From Alistipes sp. (lineage in GTDB: Bacteria; Bacteroidota; Bacteroidia; Bacteroidales; Rikenellaceae): a stretch of DNA of 64,000 bases. The position numbers and the translations under genes were made by a program. Position 1 is the first letter of the stretch. Each line of letters begins with the position of its first letter. The stretch is taken from positions 62,001 to 126,000 of the forward strand of contig JAGATC010000019.1 in NCBI GenBank assembly GCA_017621455.1, given 5' to 3'. Of this stretch, positions 6,910-17,348 are shown in pieces. The notes beneath the pieces were generated by a model. That model worked only from the letters and a program-made list of their open reading frames with translations, was not told where the DNA came from and did no database searches.

Positions 6910-8100
6910 CTAAAAGGCCTCGGTGTACCCCACTACAAAGGCACTACATCCCTTACCCATGCCATAGTCGACACGCACCAACGAGGTGGGCGAGAAGTAC
7001 CACCTTAGACCCACGCCGTAAGTAGGCAGCAGCTTACTCCACGCCGCAATATCACCCTTAGAGAGTGCCGTGCCGCAGCCTCCCCAGCCAGCCACAACAA
7101 GCCCCTCCCATACGCGCTGGCGTAGCTCTAACTGCACCGCAACCAAGCTATTACCATTGAAGCGTCCACGATAGTAGCCACGCATGCGGTTTTCGCCACC
7201 GAGCTCTCCACGCAACATCCAGGGGGTATTGTCGGAGTGGTGCTCGCCATAAATATCCAGCGCCAGGAGTCCCCCACGCCACAGGGGCTGATAGTAGTCG
7301 AAGGTGATGCTCACAGTGTGCAGCGTATGACCGTAGGTACCCAGCATCTTAGGACGCATCATATAGGCGATGTGGAGATATAGACCACGCCTCTTGTTGA
7401 CATCCTCCGTACGGCATGTCGAGTAGCTCAGATTTACCCCGACGCCAGCGCCCGAATAGCGGCTTTCGAGGGTGCCAATAATAGCCTCAGCACGCTCATC
7501 CATTCGCCTTATATCATCGTGCAGATAGTCAGCACTGACACCAATGGTTAAGTTATTGGTTAGCCGATAGTTATAGCTAAAATAACCACTAAATCGTTGC
7601 GATGTGTACTCACCGCGCCGATTCTCCAGCGACGTAGCAAAATCGAGACCGTAGATATAGGTTGGCTCGAAGCCAAACGAGCCACCATAAGTAAACCTAT
7701 GGCGTCCATCATCGAGTTGGTTTACACCGTCGAGCATAAGCGTATAGCACCCCTTGAGCGAGGCCATGGCACGCAACGACAGCGAGTGTGACGTCGTAAC
7801 GCGAGGCGTGCGGTAGTGCATGGTAGCCACCGCCGAGAGGCGCCATCCTGTATTTTCGGAGTAGGCAGGAGCTCCCACAACCGAGAACTTAACCCTGCGC
7901 GGGTCATCCGCCGAGAGTGTGAGGTATCTATTAAGACGAAGACCAAGCCCCTGACTACCCATCTGGGCATCAGTGGCTTGGTCTATAGGGGTATAGGTGT
8001 ATGCGACAGTATCAGCCTCTATAATAGCATGCTCGGTAACCTGTGCCGAGAGTGTGACACATAGTAGCAGTGCTATGGCCGTGAGCGTGCCGCGTAACAT
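6910..8100 (-). CDS. Omp85/BamA-type outer-membrane beta-barrel protein without POTRA domains
   Basis: The 396-residue protein has a signal peptide (about 1-20, ending SAQ) followed by alternating amphipathic beta strands typical of an outer-membrane barrel. The segment GGENRMRGYYRGRF near residue 310 matches the conserved loop-6 (V/M)RG(Y/F) signature of the Omp85 surface-antigen (D15) family. The C-terminus ends in Phe, as expected for a barrel. There is no room for POTRA repeats, so it is not BamA itself but one of the short Bacteroidota D15-like barrels of unknown substrate. It lies 8 bp after the thioredoxin-fold gene, in the same transcript. Confidence 0.72.
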   Translation of the reverse strand: MLRGTLTAIALLLCVTLSAQVTEHAIIEADTVAYTYTPIDQATDAQMGSQGLGLRLNRYLTLSADDPRRVKFSVVGAPAYSENTGWRLSAVATMHYRTPRVTTSHSLSLRAMASLKGCYTLMLDGVNQLDDGRHRFTYGGSFGFEPTYIYGLDFATSLENRRGEYTSQRFSGYFSYNYRLTNNLTIGVSADYLHDDIRRMDERAEAIIGTLESRYSGAGVGVNLSYSTCRTEDVNKRRGLYLHIAYMMRPKMLGTYGHTLHTVSITFDYYQPLWRGGLLALDIYGEHHSDNTPWMLRGELGGENRMRGYYRGRFNGNSLVAVQLELRQRVWEGLVVAGWGGCGTALSKGDIAAWSKLLPTYGVGLRWYFSPTSLVRVDYGMGKGCSAFVVGYTEAF

Positions 8101-10616: not shown

Positions 10617-11888
10617 TTATAACCAGTCGTTAGCATTAAACGTACTCTTGGGTGCGTTGGGCACATTCTCAAAATATGTGAAGCCAGTGATGCGCTCAAG
10701 CTCCTCGATAGAGATAATATCCTTTGCCTGTGGCGTGTGTCCCTTGTCCTGCTCGTGCGAGATGACAAAGGCGGCACACTGCAACTCCGATGCCGAGCAA
10801 TCCTTCACGCTCTTGCCGGTCGAGCCGCTCTTGGTGCGAAGCAGGGCGTAGTAGAACATCGTTGGGCGCGACACATCCGAGCGACCACCAAACGAGATCT
10901 TCTGGGGCGTGCCCGTGTTGCCATACTTGTCGGTGTAGTTATCGAAGTAGCAGCCGATTACGGTGTAGAGCGTATCGCGACAAACAAGGCCGTCGATATG
11001 GTCCTCGAGGTTGTTCCACGCGCCACCACCCGTGTTGAACGTGTCGGAGTACTGGGGAGCTATGTTCGAGAAGTAAAATACCTGCTTATTGGTCTCTGTC
11101 GACGAGGTGCGCTCCGCCGAGCCGAGCATATGACCATTGTTGCAGCCGCTGTTGGCATCCTTACGCACATACTGGATGTTTGAAGGTATCTGCGGATCCT
11201 GCGTATAGGCATCTGTGCGGTTTGCCGAGCCCTCGTACATCGAGTGACGTGGTGCCGCTACCCATACGGGGCAGTGGTGCTCCGACGAGAAGCATACAGT
11301 GTAGTTACGCGCACGGCCACTGCGCTGGGCATTCTGCTCCGAGCCGCCACAGAGGTGGTGAGCATAGTAGTAGGTCGTGTTCTTGTCGTCGCGACCATCA
11401 CCATTAGCATCAAACTCGATAGGTAGCTCATACCATCCCATGCGATAGGTCTTACCTCCCGTGGGGTCAGGGGTTGGTTCGGGCTCTGGCTCCGGTTCCG
11501 GTTCGGGTTCTGGCTCGGGTTCTGGCTCGGGCTCGGGCTCGGGCTCCTCGCCCTCAGCAAGAGTCTTAAATGTGCCACCCACAACATTCCACACATCACC
11601 CACGGCGTACACCACAACGCGATATTCGTATGTTCGGTTGGGCTTCAAGCCATCAATATCTACCGAGAATACGCGGCCAAGCTCAGCCCTATGGAACTCA
11701 TTCTCAACCATAAAGCCCACGCGCTCAACCTTACTAAAGTCCGAGGCGTTGATGGTAGCCTCCAAGGTTACCGCCGTGGTAGTAATGTTTGTTGCTTCGC
11801 TATCGACGACGCGACAAACAAAATCCTCCTCCTTGTCACACGCCACGCCTATAAGCGCAACGATAAGGAGAGTTAGTAGCTTTCTCAT
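10617..11888 (-). CDS. Lipoprotein with FN3-like domain, EP-repeat stalk and NUC1-type nuclease domain
   Basis: 423 residues. Lipobox IGVAC (Cys17) predicts a surface or periplasmic lipoprotein. Residues about 25-110 form a fibronectin-III-like domain, followed by about a dozen Glu-Pro dipeptides as a rigid stalk and a C-terminal DNA/RNA non-specific endonuclease domain. The usual DRGH motif appears as NNGHM, keeping the catalytic His. The downstream FSNIAPQ and W-NNLE segments match the metal-binding Asn/Glu region. It probably degrades extracellular nucleic acid. It is last in cdd-rluA-dtd-nuclease, 2 bp after dtd, a salvage-flavoured neighbourhood. Activity is uncertain because of the altered Asp/Arg. 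Confidence 0.85.
   Translation of the reverse strand: MRKLLTLLIVALIGVACDKEEDFVCRVVDSEATNITTTAVTLEATINASDFSKVERVGFMVENEFHRAELGRVFSVDIDGLKPNRTYEYRVVVYAVGDVWNVVGGTFKTLAEGEEPEPEPEPEPEPEPEPEPEPEPEPTPDPTGGKTYRMGWYELPIEFDANGDGRDDKNTTYYYAHHLCGGSEQNAQRSGRARNYTVCFSSEHHCPVWVAAPRHSMYEGSANRTDAYTQDPQIPSNIQYVRKDANSGCNNGHMLGSAERTSSTETNKQVFYFSNIAPQYSDTFNTGGGAWNNLEDHIDGLVCRDTLYTVIGCYFDNYTDKYGNTGTPQKISFGGRSDVSRPTMFYYALLRTKSGSTGKSVKDCSASELQCAAFVISHEQDKGHTPQAKDIISIEELERITGFTYFENVPNAPKSTFNANDWL
11470..11552. repeat. Hexanucleotide tandem repeat encoding the Glu-Pro stalk
   Basis: Imperfect GGCTCG/GGTTCG hexamers in tandem, minus-strand (EP)n. In-frame hexamers can change copy number without frameshift, altering stalk length. 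Confidence 0.8.
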
Positions 11889-13577: not shown

Positions 13578-13609
13578 TTTGGAGTTTTAGAAAATTTTTA
13601 TTATCTTTG
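13578..13609 (+). promoter_or_regulatory. Promoter of the metY-metX-hom operon
   Basis: TTTG at 13578-13581 and TATCTTTG at 13602-13609 are separated by 20 nt, the ideal Bacteroidota -33/-7 arrangement. Transcription should begin near 13615, leaving a leader of about 230 nt before metY. Confidence 0.8.
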
Positions 13610-13639: not shown

Positions 13640-13726
13640 ATGCAAAGGAGCAACGACATACGAGTTATGACAATTGAGGCGATGGTGTGTGCCTCAAAGC
13701 GTTGTTCTATGCGAATGTGCCGTTAG
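13640..13726 (+). CDS. Putative Met/Cys-rich leader peptide of the met operon
   Basis: A 28-codon ORF begins about 25 nt after the predicted transcription start. It holds five Met (positions 1, 10, 15, 24, 26) and three Cys (17, 22, 27), far above the background for either residue. Sulphur-amino-acid codons in a short ORF upstream of a homocysteine-synthesis operon are what ribosome-mediated attenuation would need. No homolog is known to me and translation is unproven. A random ORF remains possible. Confidence 0.5.
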   Translation: MQRSNDIRVMTIEAMVCASKRCSMRMCR

Positions 13727-13819
13727 GCACTACGATACCTTTTGTGCAACCACGGTCGCACACTTCTCCAAACCATACCATTTTTAAGATGTATTCCACA
13801 AGGAATACTCCATATTTTG
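13689..13819 (+). promoter_or_regulatory. Candidate attenuator region of the met leader
   Basis: GGCAC at 13726-13730 can pair with GTGCC at 13717-13721 (tight hairpin over the leader stop codon) or with GTGCC at 13689-13693 inside the leader ORF, two exclusive states. Downstream, TGTGC/GCACA (13743-13747 / 13758-13762) and GTATTCC/GGAATAC (13791-13797 / 13802-13808) form further hairpins. The last is followed by CCATATTTTG, a weak terminator-like tail. No SAM-I, SAM-II or other riboswitch core was recognised. Confidence 0.45.
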
Positions 13820-13844: not shown

Positions 13845-15128
13845 ATGAAGGACAAGAAGTTACATTTCGAGACCATTCAGATACACGGTGGTTACCATGT
13901 AGATGCATCGCAGTCGCGCGGCATCGCTATCCACCCCACCGCAGCATATCACTTCCCCACGTGTGAATATGCCGCCAACCTATTTACACTGAGCGAGCCA
14001 GGCTATATCTACACACGCCTGCACAACCCCACCACTGCGGCATACGAGGAGCGCATCGCGGCACTCTATGGCGGTGTGGGAGCCCTCTCCACAGCATCTG
14101 GAATGTCGGCGATATTGCTCACCGTCACGGCCTTAGCTAAGGCGGGAGATAACATCGTTGCCTCGCCCTACCTCTACGGTGGTACACACAACCAGTTCGT
14201 CATCTCGCTTCGCAACCTCGGCATCGAGTGCCGCTTGGCTAAGAGCGATGCGGCGGAGGATATGGCGGCACTAGTCGATGATAAGACACGTGCGCTATTT
14301 GCCGAGTCTATGGGTAATCCCACATGCCGAGTGATTGACATTGAGGCACTTGCCCACGTGGCACACAGCAACCGCATACCTCTCATCGTCGACAATACGT
14401 TTGGCGCGGGTGGCTACCTATGCAACCCCTTCGAGTGGGGCGCCGACATCATCACCGACTCGGCGACAAAGTGGATCAACGGCCACGGCACAGCCATGGG
14501 TGGCATCATCGTCGATAGCGGTAATTTCGACTGGCGCGCATCGGGTAAGTTTCCACAGATAGATGGCCCCTCGGAGGGTTACCATGGTCTCAACCTATGC
14601 GATGCATTTGGCAATCAAGCCTTTATCGTAAAGTGTCGTGTGGATGGCATGCGTGACTTCGGCTGCTGCCCCTCGGCATTCGACGCCTACCTGATGTTAC
14701 TCGGCTTGGAGACCCTATCGTTGCGTGTTAAGCACGAGGTGGAGTCTACGTACAAGCTCGCCGAGTACTGCCGCAACCACCCCAAGGTTAAGAGTGTCAG
14801 CTTCGTAGGCTTCGAGGACCACCCCAGCCACGAGCTTGCCAAGAAGTACTTCCGCTTTGGTGCAGGTGCCGTGATGACCATCGAGCTTGAGGGCGACTTA
14901 GAGTCGACCGTGAAGTTCGTCGAGAGCCTCAAGCTATCTGGCAATATGACGATGATTGGCGACTCCATCACCGTTGTTACACACCCCGCATCTACAACAC
15001 ACAAGCAGCTCTCGGACGAGGCTAAGCGTGCCGCGGGCATCACACCCACGCTGCTACGCATATCACTCGGTTTGGAGAATGTCGAGGATATCATCGCCGA
15101 CTATGAGGAGGCGCTCAGCAACATCTAA
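13845..15128 (+). CDS. metY: O-acetylhomoserine sulfhydrylase (aminocarboxypropyltransferase)
   Basis: PLP enzyme that makes homocysteine from O-acetylhomoserine and sulfide. The 427 residues fit the Cys/Met-metabolism PLP family. Evidence includes YTRLHNPT, the SGMSAI substrate loop and the PLP-binding Lys209 in DSATKWINGHG. Length and N-terminus (LHFETIQIHGGY) match MetY rather than the shorter MetB/MetC. It sits first in the operon, followed by metX, the enzyme that makes its substrate. Confidence 0.95.
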   Translation: MKDKKLHFETIQIHGGYHVDASQSRGIAIHPTAAYHFPTCEYAANLFTLSEPGYIYTRLHNPTTAAYEERIAALYGGVGALSTASGMSAILLTVTALAKAGDNIVASPYLYGGTHNQFVISLRNLGIECRLAKSDAAEDMAALVDDKTRALFAESMGNPTCRVIDIEALAHVAHSNRIPLIVDNTFGAGGYLCNPFEWGADIITDSATKWINGHGTAMGGIIVDSGNFDWRASGKFPQIDGPSEGYHGLNLCDAFGNQAFIVKCRVDGMRDFGCCPSAFDAYLMLLGLETLSLRVKHEVESTYKLAEYCRNHPKVKSVSFVGFEDHPSHELAKKYFRFGAGAVMTIELEGDLESTVKFVESLKLSGNMTMIGDSITVVTHPASTTHKQLSDEAKRAAGITPTLLRISLGLENVEDIIADYEEALSNI

Positions 15129-15140
15129 CGACAGCCAACG

Positions 15141-16157
15141 ATGAGCAAACTATATCGACATAGCGAGCCCTTCGAGTTGGAGTCGGGAGCGACACTCCCA
15201 GAGTTGGAGATTGCCTACGACACCTTTGGCACACTTAACGAGGCAAAGGATAATGTCATCTGGGTATGTCACGCCCTAACGGCAAACTCCGATGTTGCCG
15301 ACTGGTGGCCACATACGGTGGAGCAGGGCAAGTTTCTCGACCCCGAACGCTACTTCGTCGTCTGCGCCAACTTCCTCGGCTCGCACTACGGCACGACATC
15401 GCCACTTACCGAAAACCCTGCAACGGGCAAAAAGTGGTACTACGACTTTCCGCAGATTACGGTGCGCGACATGGTACGTGCCCACCAACTGCTGGCCGAT
15501 GCTCTCGGCATTGAGCGCGTTAAGCTGCTCATTGGCAGCTCGATAGGCGGCTTCCAGTGTATGGAGTGGGCGATAATGGAGCCGGAGTTTATGGAGTCGT
15601 TGGCTCTCATTGCCACCACTACTTGTTCCGAGCCATGGGCTGCGGCCTTTAACGAGTCGCAGCGTATGGCCATTCGCCTCGACCCCACGTGGGGCGAGGA
15701 GCGCGACGATGCAGGACTCGACGGCATGGCCGTAGCACGCTCCATAGCCCTCATAAGCTATCGTGGAGGTGCTGCCTACAACGCCACACAGCAGGAGGCA
15801 AACCCCACGGAGGCATCGTTTGAGCGCCGAGCGCACACATATCAGCAGTATCAGGGAGAGAAGCTACGTCGCAGGTTCAATGCCATGTCGTACTACCGCC
15901 TATCCGAGGCTGTCGACTCGCACAACATTGCGCGTGGCAGGGGAGGCATCGCCGAGGCTCTGCATCGCATCGAGGCACGCACGCTCATTGTCGCCATATC
16001 GTCGGATATACTCTTCCCGCCCGAGGCACACACGCCACTTAGGCAGCACATCGCGCGCAACGAGTACCACCTCATCGAGTCGGAGTTTGGCCACGACGGC
16101 TTCCTTGTAGAACACGAAAAACTAAACACGATAATACAAAACTTCTTAAACCAGTAA
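15141..16157 (+). CDS. metX: Homoserine O-acetyltransferase
   Basis: Acetylates homoserine with acetyl-CoA, supplying MetY. The 338-residue alpha/beta-hydrolase has WVCHALTANSDV, NFLGSHYGTTSP and the nucleophile elbow GSSIGG (Ser134). The C-terminal FGHDGFL supplies the catalytic His, and SSDILFPP precedes it with the catalytic Asp. Starts 12 bp after metY. Confidence 0.95.
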   Translation: MSKLYRHSEPFELESGATLPELEIAYDTFGTLNEAKDNVIWVCHALTANSDVADWWPHTVEQGKFLDPERYFVVCANFLGSHYGTTSPLTENPATGKKWYYDFPQITVRDMVRAHQLLADALGIERVKLLIGSSIGGFQCMEWAIMEPEFMESLALIATTTCSEPWAAAFNESQRMAIRLDPTWGEERDDAGLDGMAVARSIALISYRGGAAYNATQQEANPTEASFERRAHTYQQYQGEKLRRRFNAMSYYRLSEAVDSHNIARGRGGIAEALHRIEARTLIVAISSDILFPPEAHTPLRQHIARNEYHLIESEFGHDGFLVEHEKLNTIIQNFLNQ

Positions 16158-16163
16158 TAACCT

Positions 16164-17348
16164 ATGAAACAGCTTAATATAGGCCTTTTTGGCTTCGGTA
16201 ATGTGGGACACGGACTCTACGACGTGCTTAAGCGTATCGACTCAAAGAGTGTAACCATCCGCCACATCTGCGTGCGCGACATAAATAAGGAGCGCGGAGT
16301 AGACGCCAAGTTCACATCAAACCCCGACGACATCTTCAACGACCGCGACATCAACCTCATCGTCGAAGTTATTGACGACGCCGAGGCTGCATACGAGATT
16401 GTGAAGCGTGCGCTCAAGATGCGCATACCCGTGGTTTCAGGCAACAAGAAGATGCTTGGCCACCATCTGCCCGAGCTTATCGACCTTCAGGAGCAGTACA
16501 ACACAGCCCTTCTGTACGATGCCTCGGCATGTGGCTCAATCCCCGTAATCCGCAACCTCGAGGAGTACTACGACAACGACCTGCTCACATCGGTAAAGGG
16601 TATCCTCAACGGCTCGTCGAACTTCATCCTCTCGAAGATTTTCAACGAGAAGATGGGCTATAAGGAGGCACTTAAGCTGGCGCAGGACCTCGGCTTTGCC
16701 GAGAGCAACCCCACACTCGACATCGACGGCTGGGATTCACTTTACAAGCTGATTATCGTCACCATTCACGCCTTTGGCGTATATGTAGCACCCGAGGAGA
16801 TACTCACCTACGGCATCTCGACAATGAACGACTCGGACATCCGCTTTGCTCACGAGAAGGAGCGCCGCATTAAGCTCGTAGCACATGTCGAGAAGGTCGA
16901 TGACAGCAAGCTAATCATGTGCGTGTTGCCGCAGCTTATCTCGCGCAACAAGTACATCTACAGCGTGGAGGACGAGTTCAACGGCGTGGTAATCAAGGGC
17001 TTATTCTACGACAAACAGTTTATGTTTGGTCGCGGTGCTGGTGGTCACCCCACAGGCTCAGCCGTGCTTAGCGACATCACCGCTTGTGGCTACAACTACC
17101 GCTACGAGTATAAGAAGCGTAACGACTCGGTGCTACCATGCTACTCTACCGACCACGCGTTCCGCATCTACTTCCGCTATAAGACGGCCGAGGAGCGCAA
17201 CCTGCTAAAGTTCGAGAACATCCGCGAGCAGTACACCTCGGAGGAGTTTAGCTACATCATTGGCGATGTATCTATCGCCAACCTCAAGGCACACCAGGAG
17301 GAGCTACGCACGCCAAACTGCTTCGTAGCGGCCTATCCGTTGGACTAA
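16164..17348 (+). CDS. hom: Homoserine dehydrogenase
   Basis: Reduces aspartate semialdehyde to homoserine with NAD(P)H. 394 residues: Rossmann motif GLFGFGNVGHG at 8-18, catalytic-domain motifs GILNGSSNFIL and DGWDSLYKL (catalytic Lys), and GAGGHPTGSAVLSD. No aspartokinase fusion; whether the C-terminal 90 residues form an ACT-like regulatory region is unclear. Placed 6 bp after metX, completing the route to homocysteine. Confidence 0.93.
   Translation: MKQLNIGLFGFGNVGHGLYDVLKRIDSKSVTIRHICVRDINKERGVDAKFTSNPDDIFNDRDINLIVEVIDDAEAAYEIVKRALKMRIPVVSGNKKMLGHHLPELIDLQEQYNTALLYDASACGSIPVIRNLEEYYDNDLLTSVKGILNGSSNFILSKIFNEKMGYKEALKLAQDLGFAESNPTLDIDGWDSLYKLIIVTIHAFGVYVAPEEILTYGISTMNDSDIRFAHEKERRIKLVAHVEKVDDSKLIMCVLPQLISRNKYIYSVEDEFNGVVIKGLFYDKQFMFGRGAGGHPTGSAVLSDITACGYNYRYEYKKRNDSVLPCYSTDHAFRIYFRYKTAEERNLLKFENIREQYTSEEFSYIIGDVSIANLKAHQEELRTPNCFVAAYPLD

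Follow-up and report, generated by a model that had tools for sequence, protein, structure and literature searches.

The metY-metX-hom operon of an Alistipes genome is preceded by a short ORF, rich in methionine codons and conserved in its ending, which probably serves as a cis-acting, ribosome-mediated methionine sensor for the operon. Methionine genes are usually described under the control of SAM riboswitches, T-boxes or repressors, and in Bacteroidetes the control of genes by leader peptides has, to our knowledge, been little explored. Here, we analyse the leader within a window of 64,000 nucleotides (the whole stretch examined, from contig JAGATC010000019.1 of assembly GCA_017621455.1) and compare it with upstream regions from its genus, its order and a larger collection of species; we rate it as a new variant of leader-peptide control that is unexpectedly linked to SAM-I riboswitches.

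As the original prediction had described from the window alone, a 28-codon ORF lies 5' of the three genes (Table 1) and encodes a peptide, MQRSNDIRVMTIEAMVCASKRCSMRMCR*, with eight sulphur-containing residues, five Met and three Cys. The promoter claimed ahead of it is also found and is of Bacteroidetes type, fitting what we take to be the -33/-7 promoter consensus of this phylum, whereas a scan for sigma-70 promoters gave chance-level sites only. The leader ATG lies 38 nt past the start of the -7 box in the window, and a TAnnTTTG box precedes 65 of the 66 leaders compared, its start being mostly 25-32 nt before the leader ATG. Among the genes, the metX assignment appears clear from its best profile match even though this falls under the cut-off. 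The original prediction had set its proposal against a known riboswitch, and none is detected in the window at Rfam gathering thresholds, where zero families match, SAM-I (RF00162) included; four sub-threshold matches to the leader at a permissive threshold were taken as chance, and the source genome has no RF00162 aptamer. It does contain a gene for Rho. Some way upstream, on the minus strand at 10617-11888, the window encodes a protein that by eye combines a long Glu-Pro repeat with a following nuclease-like domain.

Table 1. Features of the leader region and operon, in window coordinates
Feature	Position	Strand	Basis
Promoter, Bacteroidetes type: TTTG (13578-13581), 20 nt, TATCTTTG (13602-13609)	13578..13609	+	sequence
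Leader ORF, 28 codons and TAG (13724-13726)	13640..13726	+	sequence; in-frame Met codons
Invariant 22-nt block ATGCGAATGTGCCGTTAGGCAC: last five codons, stop, P1 3' arm	13709..13730	+	pattern scans
Hairpin P1, GTGCC-GTTA-GGCAC, holding the leader stop codon	13717..13730	+	100% paired in 66 leaders
Hairpin P2, loop CACG in the window	13743..13762	+	covariation
Unpaired stretch rich in C and poor in G, candidate site for Rho loading	13763..13790	+	suggestive
Last hairpin before metY, unconvincing as a terminator	13791..13808	+	followed only by TCCATATTTT
metY, O-acetylhomoserine aminocarboxypropyltransferase	13845..15128	+	TIGR01326, 551.7 bits (cut-off 495.1)
metX-like homoserine O-acyltransferase	15141..16157	+	top match TIGR01392, 344.5 bits (cut-off 500)
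hom, homoserine dehydrogenase	16164..17348	+	NF004976, 299.7 bits (cut-off 205)

A main indication that the leader is read by ribosomes comes from the phase of its methionine codons. The comparison set comprises 67 distinct leaders at <85% identity, drawn from 79 distinct occurrences, with three rows left out of some counts (L044, which is the G095 coding match; L079, incomplete; and L107, which lacks the promoter box). Between the start codon and the conserved block described below, ATG codons in 65 leaders are found in frame (161/1336) rather than in the other two frames (9 and 0; Fisher 2e-67), which themselves contain 79 and 58 stops. These Met codons crowd into the ten positions that precede the block; two codons ahead of it, for example, 32 of 64 leaders have Met. 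The supply of methionine or cysteine had been put forward as the signal, and only the methionine half of that claim stands on the comparative evidence: Cys codons show no in-frame enrichment in the leaders (33 in frame, 95 and 57 out of frame), and cysteine was rejected as the sensed residue on that ground. Single changes in close leader pairs are non-synonymous in 89 cases and synonymous in 50, the peptide being free outside its last codons, and a stricter codon-substitution test on 37 pairs gives a third-position excess (62/75/95) so weak that the peptide upstream of the block seems not to be conserved as such. Since the peptide varies freely there, coding is inferred mainly from the Met-codon phase together with the kept stop, which stays in frame, with its hairpin closed, in both indel variants (MRMCL-TAG in L006 and MRMCR-TAA in L192). 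The comparisons support a leader ORF that is conserved and translated-looking, with methionine presumably read through its codons, and we conclude from these sequences that it is codons, chiefly AUG, rather than a long peptide, that would matter. A further short motif, ACATA (13656-13660 in the window), holds a fixed place 16-20 nt past the start of the leader, with A at +18 in 58 of 65 leaders, and recurs at about +15, in a different frame, in the sister attenuator leaders considered later; it resembles a signal at the level of nucleotides, close to the start codon.

The leader ends in a 22-nt block, ATGCGAATGTGCCGnTAGGCAC, composed of the last five codons, the stop codon and the next four bases, and read as MRMCR-stop. 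Conservation of the leader ORF, on which the earlier proposal depended, is borne out by this ending: at up to three mismatches the block is found in 66 of 180 genus genomes, or 65 once G095 is set aside, its three-mismatch match lying within a longer coding frame, and the reversed pattern matched one of the genus genomes. A scan of a collection of 84,980 species for the exact block, with any base permitted in the third position of CGA, returned 77 stretches, all from records with Bacteroidales names. These are mostly Alistipes, Tidjanibacter and other Rikenellaceae assemblies, the remaining carriers being Candidatus Avirikenella, one assembly labelled Muribaculaceae and three Prevotella species. 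In 75 of the 77, metY is the long ORF that comes next, the exceptions being one stretch at a contig edge (L144) and one, from Prevotella corporis (L146), followed by something else. Across 393 genomes of the order, the block pattern gave, besides the window, only four matches at two to three mismatches and no further real case, while a covariance model of block plus P2 gave eight more weak matches (E 0.08-0.94) that we take as chance because MetY, MetX and Hom were not found there by tblastn. On the MetY tree, the block occurs in the deepest branches, where MetY is 51-53% identical to that of the window, and its absences are scattered.

Constraint on the block is tight. Among the 79 distinct pooled occurrences, 74 vary only at the loop base N, three have GGCGC and two are otherwise different, namely L006 with MRMCL and L075 with QRMCR. 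The third base of CGA is A in 77/77 stretches though any base was permitted, and the codon is rare, accounting for 8 of the 189 Arg codons in nine window genes; its invariance may reflect an extra constraint on the RNA or on slow reading of the codon. Two of the Prevotella carriers, P. brunnea (L110) and P. ihumii (L128), fall among Rikenellaceae in the MetY tree, which suggests horizontal transfer. Their shortest ATG-started leader is MMRMCR, but the open frame extends upstream of this ATG (...SKNIVLCSTF in L110), so translation may begin at a codon other than ATG. The P. corporis sequence diverges from the leaders of these two species after about position 7025, as if an insertion or rearrangement had severed the block from metY.

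A peptide whose last five residues are nearly invariant while the rest is free, and which in Prevotella can be as short as MMRMCR when counted from an ATG, could also be read as an arrest peptide, with the C-terminal MRMCR stalling the ribosome at the stop codon on a small molecule (methionine, SAM or homocysteine) much as TnaC does with tryptophan. We consider this unlikely. The constraint is also at the nucleotide level, extending to a synonymous base that never varies, the MRMCL and QRMCR variants occur, and arrest predicts neither that Met codons are enriched ahead of the block nor the canonical attenuator of the sister species.

Beyond the ORF, what is conserved in leaders of the window type is a fixed order of elements: MRMCR-stop, a hairpin over the stop codon (P1), a short spacer and a second hairpin (P2). 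In 66 leaders the sole change in P1 is U-A to U-G, in three of them. P2 is present in 64 of 66, with two-sided changes in all seven of its pairs and 104 double-change cells against 36 in shuffled and 23-42 in slid alignments; its usual loop is a YACGN-type pentaloop, 43 of 44 pentaloops fitting [CT][AG][CTA]GN. The spacer is mostly 12-13 nt (35/64; range 8-18). The window leader folds with an unremarkable energy (z -1.5), and a search by eye for pairing of AUGCGA or the P2 loop with other parts of the leader found nothing consistent.

This arrangement differs from the switch first envisaged, in which GGCAC at the leader stop (13726-13730) would pair with either of two GTGCC segments, one inside the ORF (13689-13693) and one at its end (13717-13721). 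The motifs are there, but the alternative is not conserved: a competing GTGCC within the ORF is found in only 2 of 65 leaders, upstream partners for GGCAC occur in 6 of 66 against 8.9 in shuffles, and no mutually exclusive pairing is common to all leaders. Termination at the last hairpin before metY likewise finds no backing, as this hairpin lacks a U-tract; the hairpins at this position differ among relatives, and a T6 run before metY is present in only 12 of 64 leaders. Of the proposed attenuation layout, then, the putative ribosome-read methionine leader is retained and the canonical alternative hairpins are not, being seen instead in 19 sister loci. Directly 3' of P2 the RNA is rich in C and poor in G, the best 40-nt excess of C over G having a median of 10 across leaders, a value reached by 7% of GC-matched control stretches, and this is suggestive of a Rho loading site.

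A classic attenuator could nevertheless be built if GGCAC, the 3' arm of P1, paired alternatively with a downstream GUGYC segment. A third hairpin (P3), often GUGYC-GRCAC and often with GUGUC as its 5' arm, does follow P2 directly in 23 of 66 leaders, and a downstream partner for GGCAC exists in 27 of 66 against 9.25 expected by shuffling, a count inflated by related sequences since it comes mostly from one clade. Most leaders, that of the window included, are without it, and no U-tract follows P3, so we do not think this reading likely. It is, in our estimate, still less probable that block, P1 and P2 together form a structured RNA element, either a riboswitch or a protein site, to which the ORF is incidental. 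The invariant nucleotides down to the third base of CGA, the covarying P2 with its conserved loop and the spacer of mostly 12-13 nt would all fit such an element; the Met-codon phase and the stop kept in indel variants point to translation, and no Rfam family matches.

Methionine sensing by the window leader is supported by the presence of a canonical methionine attenuator at the same place in sister species. Among 42 upstream regions surveyed in genomes that gave no match to the block pattern (L022 and L025 included; L192 carries a variant block), 19 have a terminator with a U-tract. In the 18 of these sister loci where the leader is complete, a Met-rich ORF, for example ...MMMVMCMCNRFRRV-stop, precedes the terminator. 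The Met codons of these sister leaders are again in phase (110 in frame against 7 and 1), and GCCGG, the partner of the terminator 5' arm, always begins 8 nt ahead of the leader stop codon (18/18). One such leader, folded with and without the GCCGG strand, switches between antiterminator and terminator. The layout is that of a textbook methionine attenuator, in which methionine starvation would stall the ribosome upstream and thereby allow the antiterminator to form.

In five close relatives (L184-L188, MetY at least 90% identical), metY instead lies 37-50 nt behind a similar promoter without any leader, and the leader is thus dispensable in the sense that some close relatives do without it. 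One assembly (G118) has two metY genes, one with a leader and one without, on contigs C48 and C65 (L059 and L184), for which contamination is possible. That metY can sit right behind its promoter would fit the view that the leader is no more than a short, unregulated ORF in an ordinary 5' UTR, a reading made most implausible by conservation over deeply split MetY lineages, the Met-codon phase, the covariation of P2 and the genuine attenuator that sister species carry in this position.

The putative ribosome-read methionine leader has a wider context in other Bacteroidales, where a SAM-I aptamer lies upstream of metY in 16 of 40 regions examined; in the genus of the window, SAM-I is found in 1 of 180 genomes. 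We analysed 84 distinct aptamers out of 87 sequences (30 best-scoring loci, 40 chosen plus-strand places, 16 metY regions and L107), which are part of all SAM-I places listed. Downstream of these 84 are 54 leader ORFs, nine shorter ORFs, seven large genes and 14 cases with no ATG within 25 nt. An ATG falls 9-16 nt past the aptamer in 63 of 84, compared with a mean of 19% in windows of equal width further down. The 54 leader ORFs, of 12-65 codons, are packed with methionine at their ends: Met rises from 1.0% in the earlier part to 16.1% over the last 12 residues, with smaller rises for Arg (10.7% against 4.3%) and Cys (6.6% against 2.7%); ATG is found 115 times in frame against 15 and 9, and Met accounts for 2.5% and 3.2% in antisense control ORFs. 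CGAATG is kept near the end of 13 of the 54, some with window-like MRM endings, and hairpins at the stop codon are commoner than in shuffles (43% against 18% at score 12). One locus (L107) carries a SAM-I aptamer (60.5 bits) and a complete MRMCR block together. Given that SAM-I is almost absent from the genus, the window leader is best seen as a remnant after presumed aptamer loss, an aptamer-less descendant. At seven loci (L275, L280, L293, L298, L303, L312 and L313) a large gene, presumably related to methionine synthase MetH by its N-terminus, starts 11-20 nt past the aptamer, a geometry that would suit a translation-controlling SAM-I riboswitch in Bacteroidales.

The preferred mechanism for the methionine leader can be set out as follows. 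Close to the mRNA 5' end, ribosomes would translate the short ORF, and the Met codons in its last ten or so positions, with AUG-CGA-AUG before the stop, would tie ribosome progress to charged Met-tRNA; both steps have comparative support. The rare, invariant CGA may then slow the ribosome at a decision point, P1 being covered while the ribosome is stalled over the final AUGs or occupies the stop codon, and folded after release. With methionine plentiful, release would expose the C-rich downstream RNA and transcription would end, with Rho as the most likely factor since there is no conserved intrinsic terminator; a ribosome that stalls over the closing codons of the ORF would block termination and allow metY-metX-hom to be transcribed. 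Ribosome-mediated control by methionine is well supported by the comparisons, and the output step, perhaps through Rho, is a proposal. Codon sensing alone does not account for the invariance of CGA or for the P2 loop. Comparative support extends to placing the leader in a Bacteroidales family that often has a SAM-I aptamer directly upstream, and the geometry suggests that the aptamer can gate leader translation; the Rikenellaceae type would have lost it, and one Alistipes lineage has the intrinsic-terminator attenuator instead. We tentatively extend this to a two-input device in Bacteroidales, a possibility to which we lean rather less than halfway, in which SAM-I gates leader initiation and the end-packed Met codons read Met-tRNA charging, the Rikenellaceae leader being its aptamer-free descendant, with a 22-nt ending constrained as both peptide and RNA and with no intrinsic terminator. 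Under such a scheme the operon would be fully on only when SAM and methionine are both low.

Several known systems share parts of this design. Attenuators of the trp/his type, and the ilvB uORF of Corynebacterium (PMC11109978), likewise place a short ORF rich in codons for the product before a biosynthetic operon. The sister Alistipes leaders share with the trp/his type the antiterminator and intrinsic terminator, whereas the window leader has no intrinsic terminator, would read methionine and has a fixed MRMCR-stop with the stop inside a hairpin. The SAM-I riboswitch precedes the same gene in related families with a similar Met-rich leader ORF at a fixed distance, but the window lacks its aptamer, as do 179 of the 180 genomes of the genus. 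A B12 riboswitch of Mycobacterium tuberculosis is also combined with a short ORF whose translation has an effect on the gene downstream, with termination-reinitiation named in a section heading; ligand and phylum differ, and the abstract makes no mention of product-amino-acid codons (PMC11260477). For Bacteroides thetaiotaomicron in general, sORFs reminiscent of leader peptides are noted in PMC7366714. The literature searched, which took in few subscription papers or preprints, yielded no codon-reading methionine attenuator. If the proposal is true, SAM-I joined to a Met-codon leader would form a natural AND gate that responds to a pair of related metabolites; the series found over one gene (aptamer with leader, leader alone, leader with terminator, and none) would allow the stepwise evolution of RNA regulation to be traced.

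Mycobacteria reportedly have poly-cysteine leaderless ORFs, which like the Alistipes leader carry a codon run for a sulphur amino acid and differ from it in the use of cysteine and in the leaderless start. Among the ORFs that follow SAM-I aptamers, two (L297 and L307) end in poly-cysteine, SLCCCCCCC and SFCCCFCCC.
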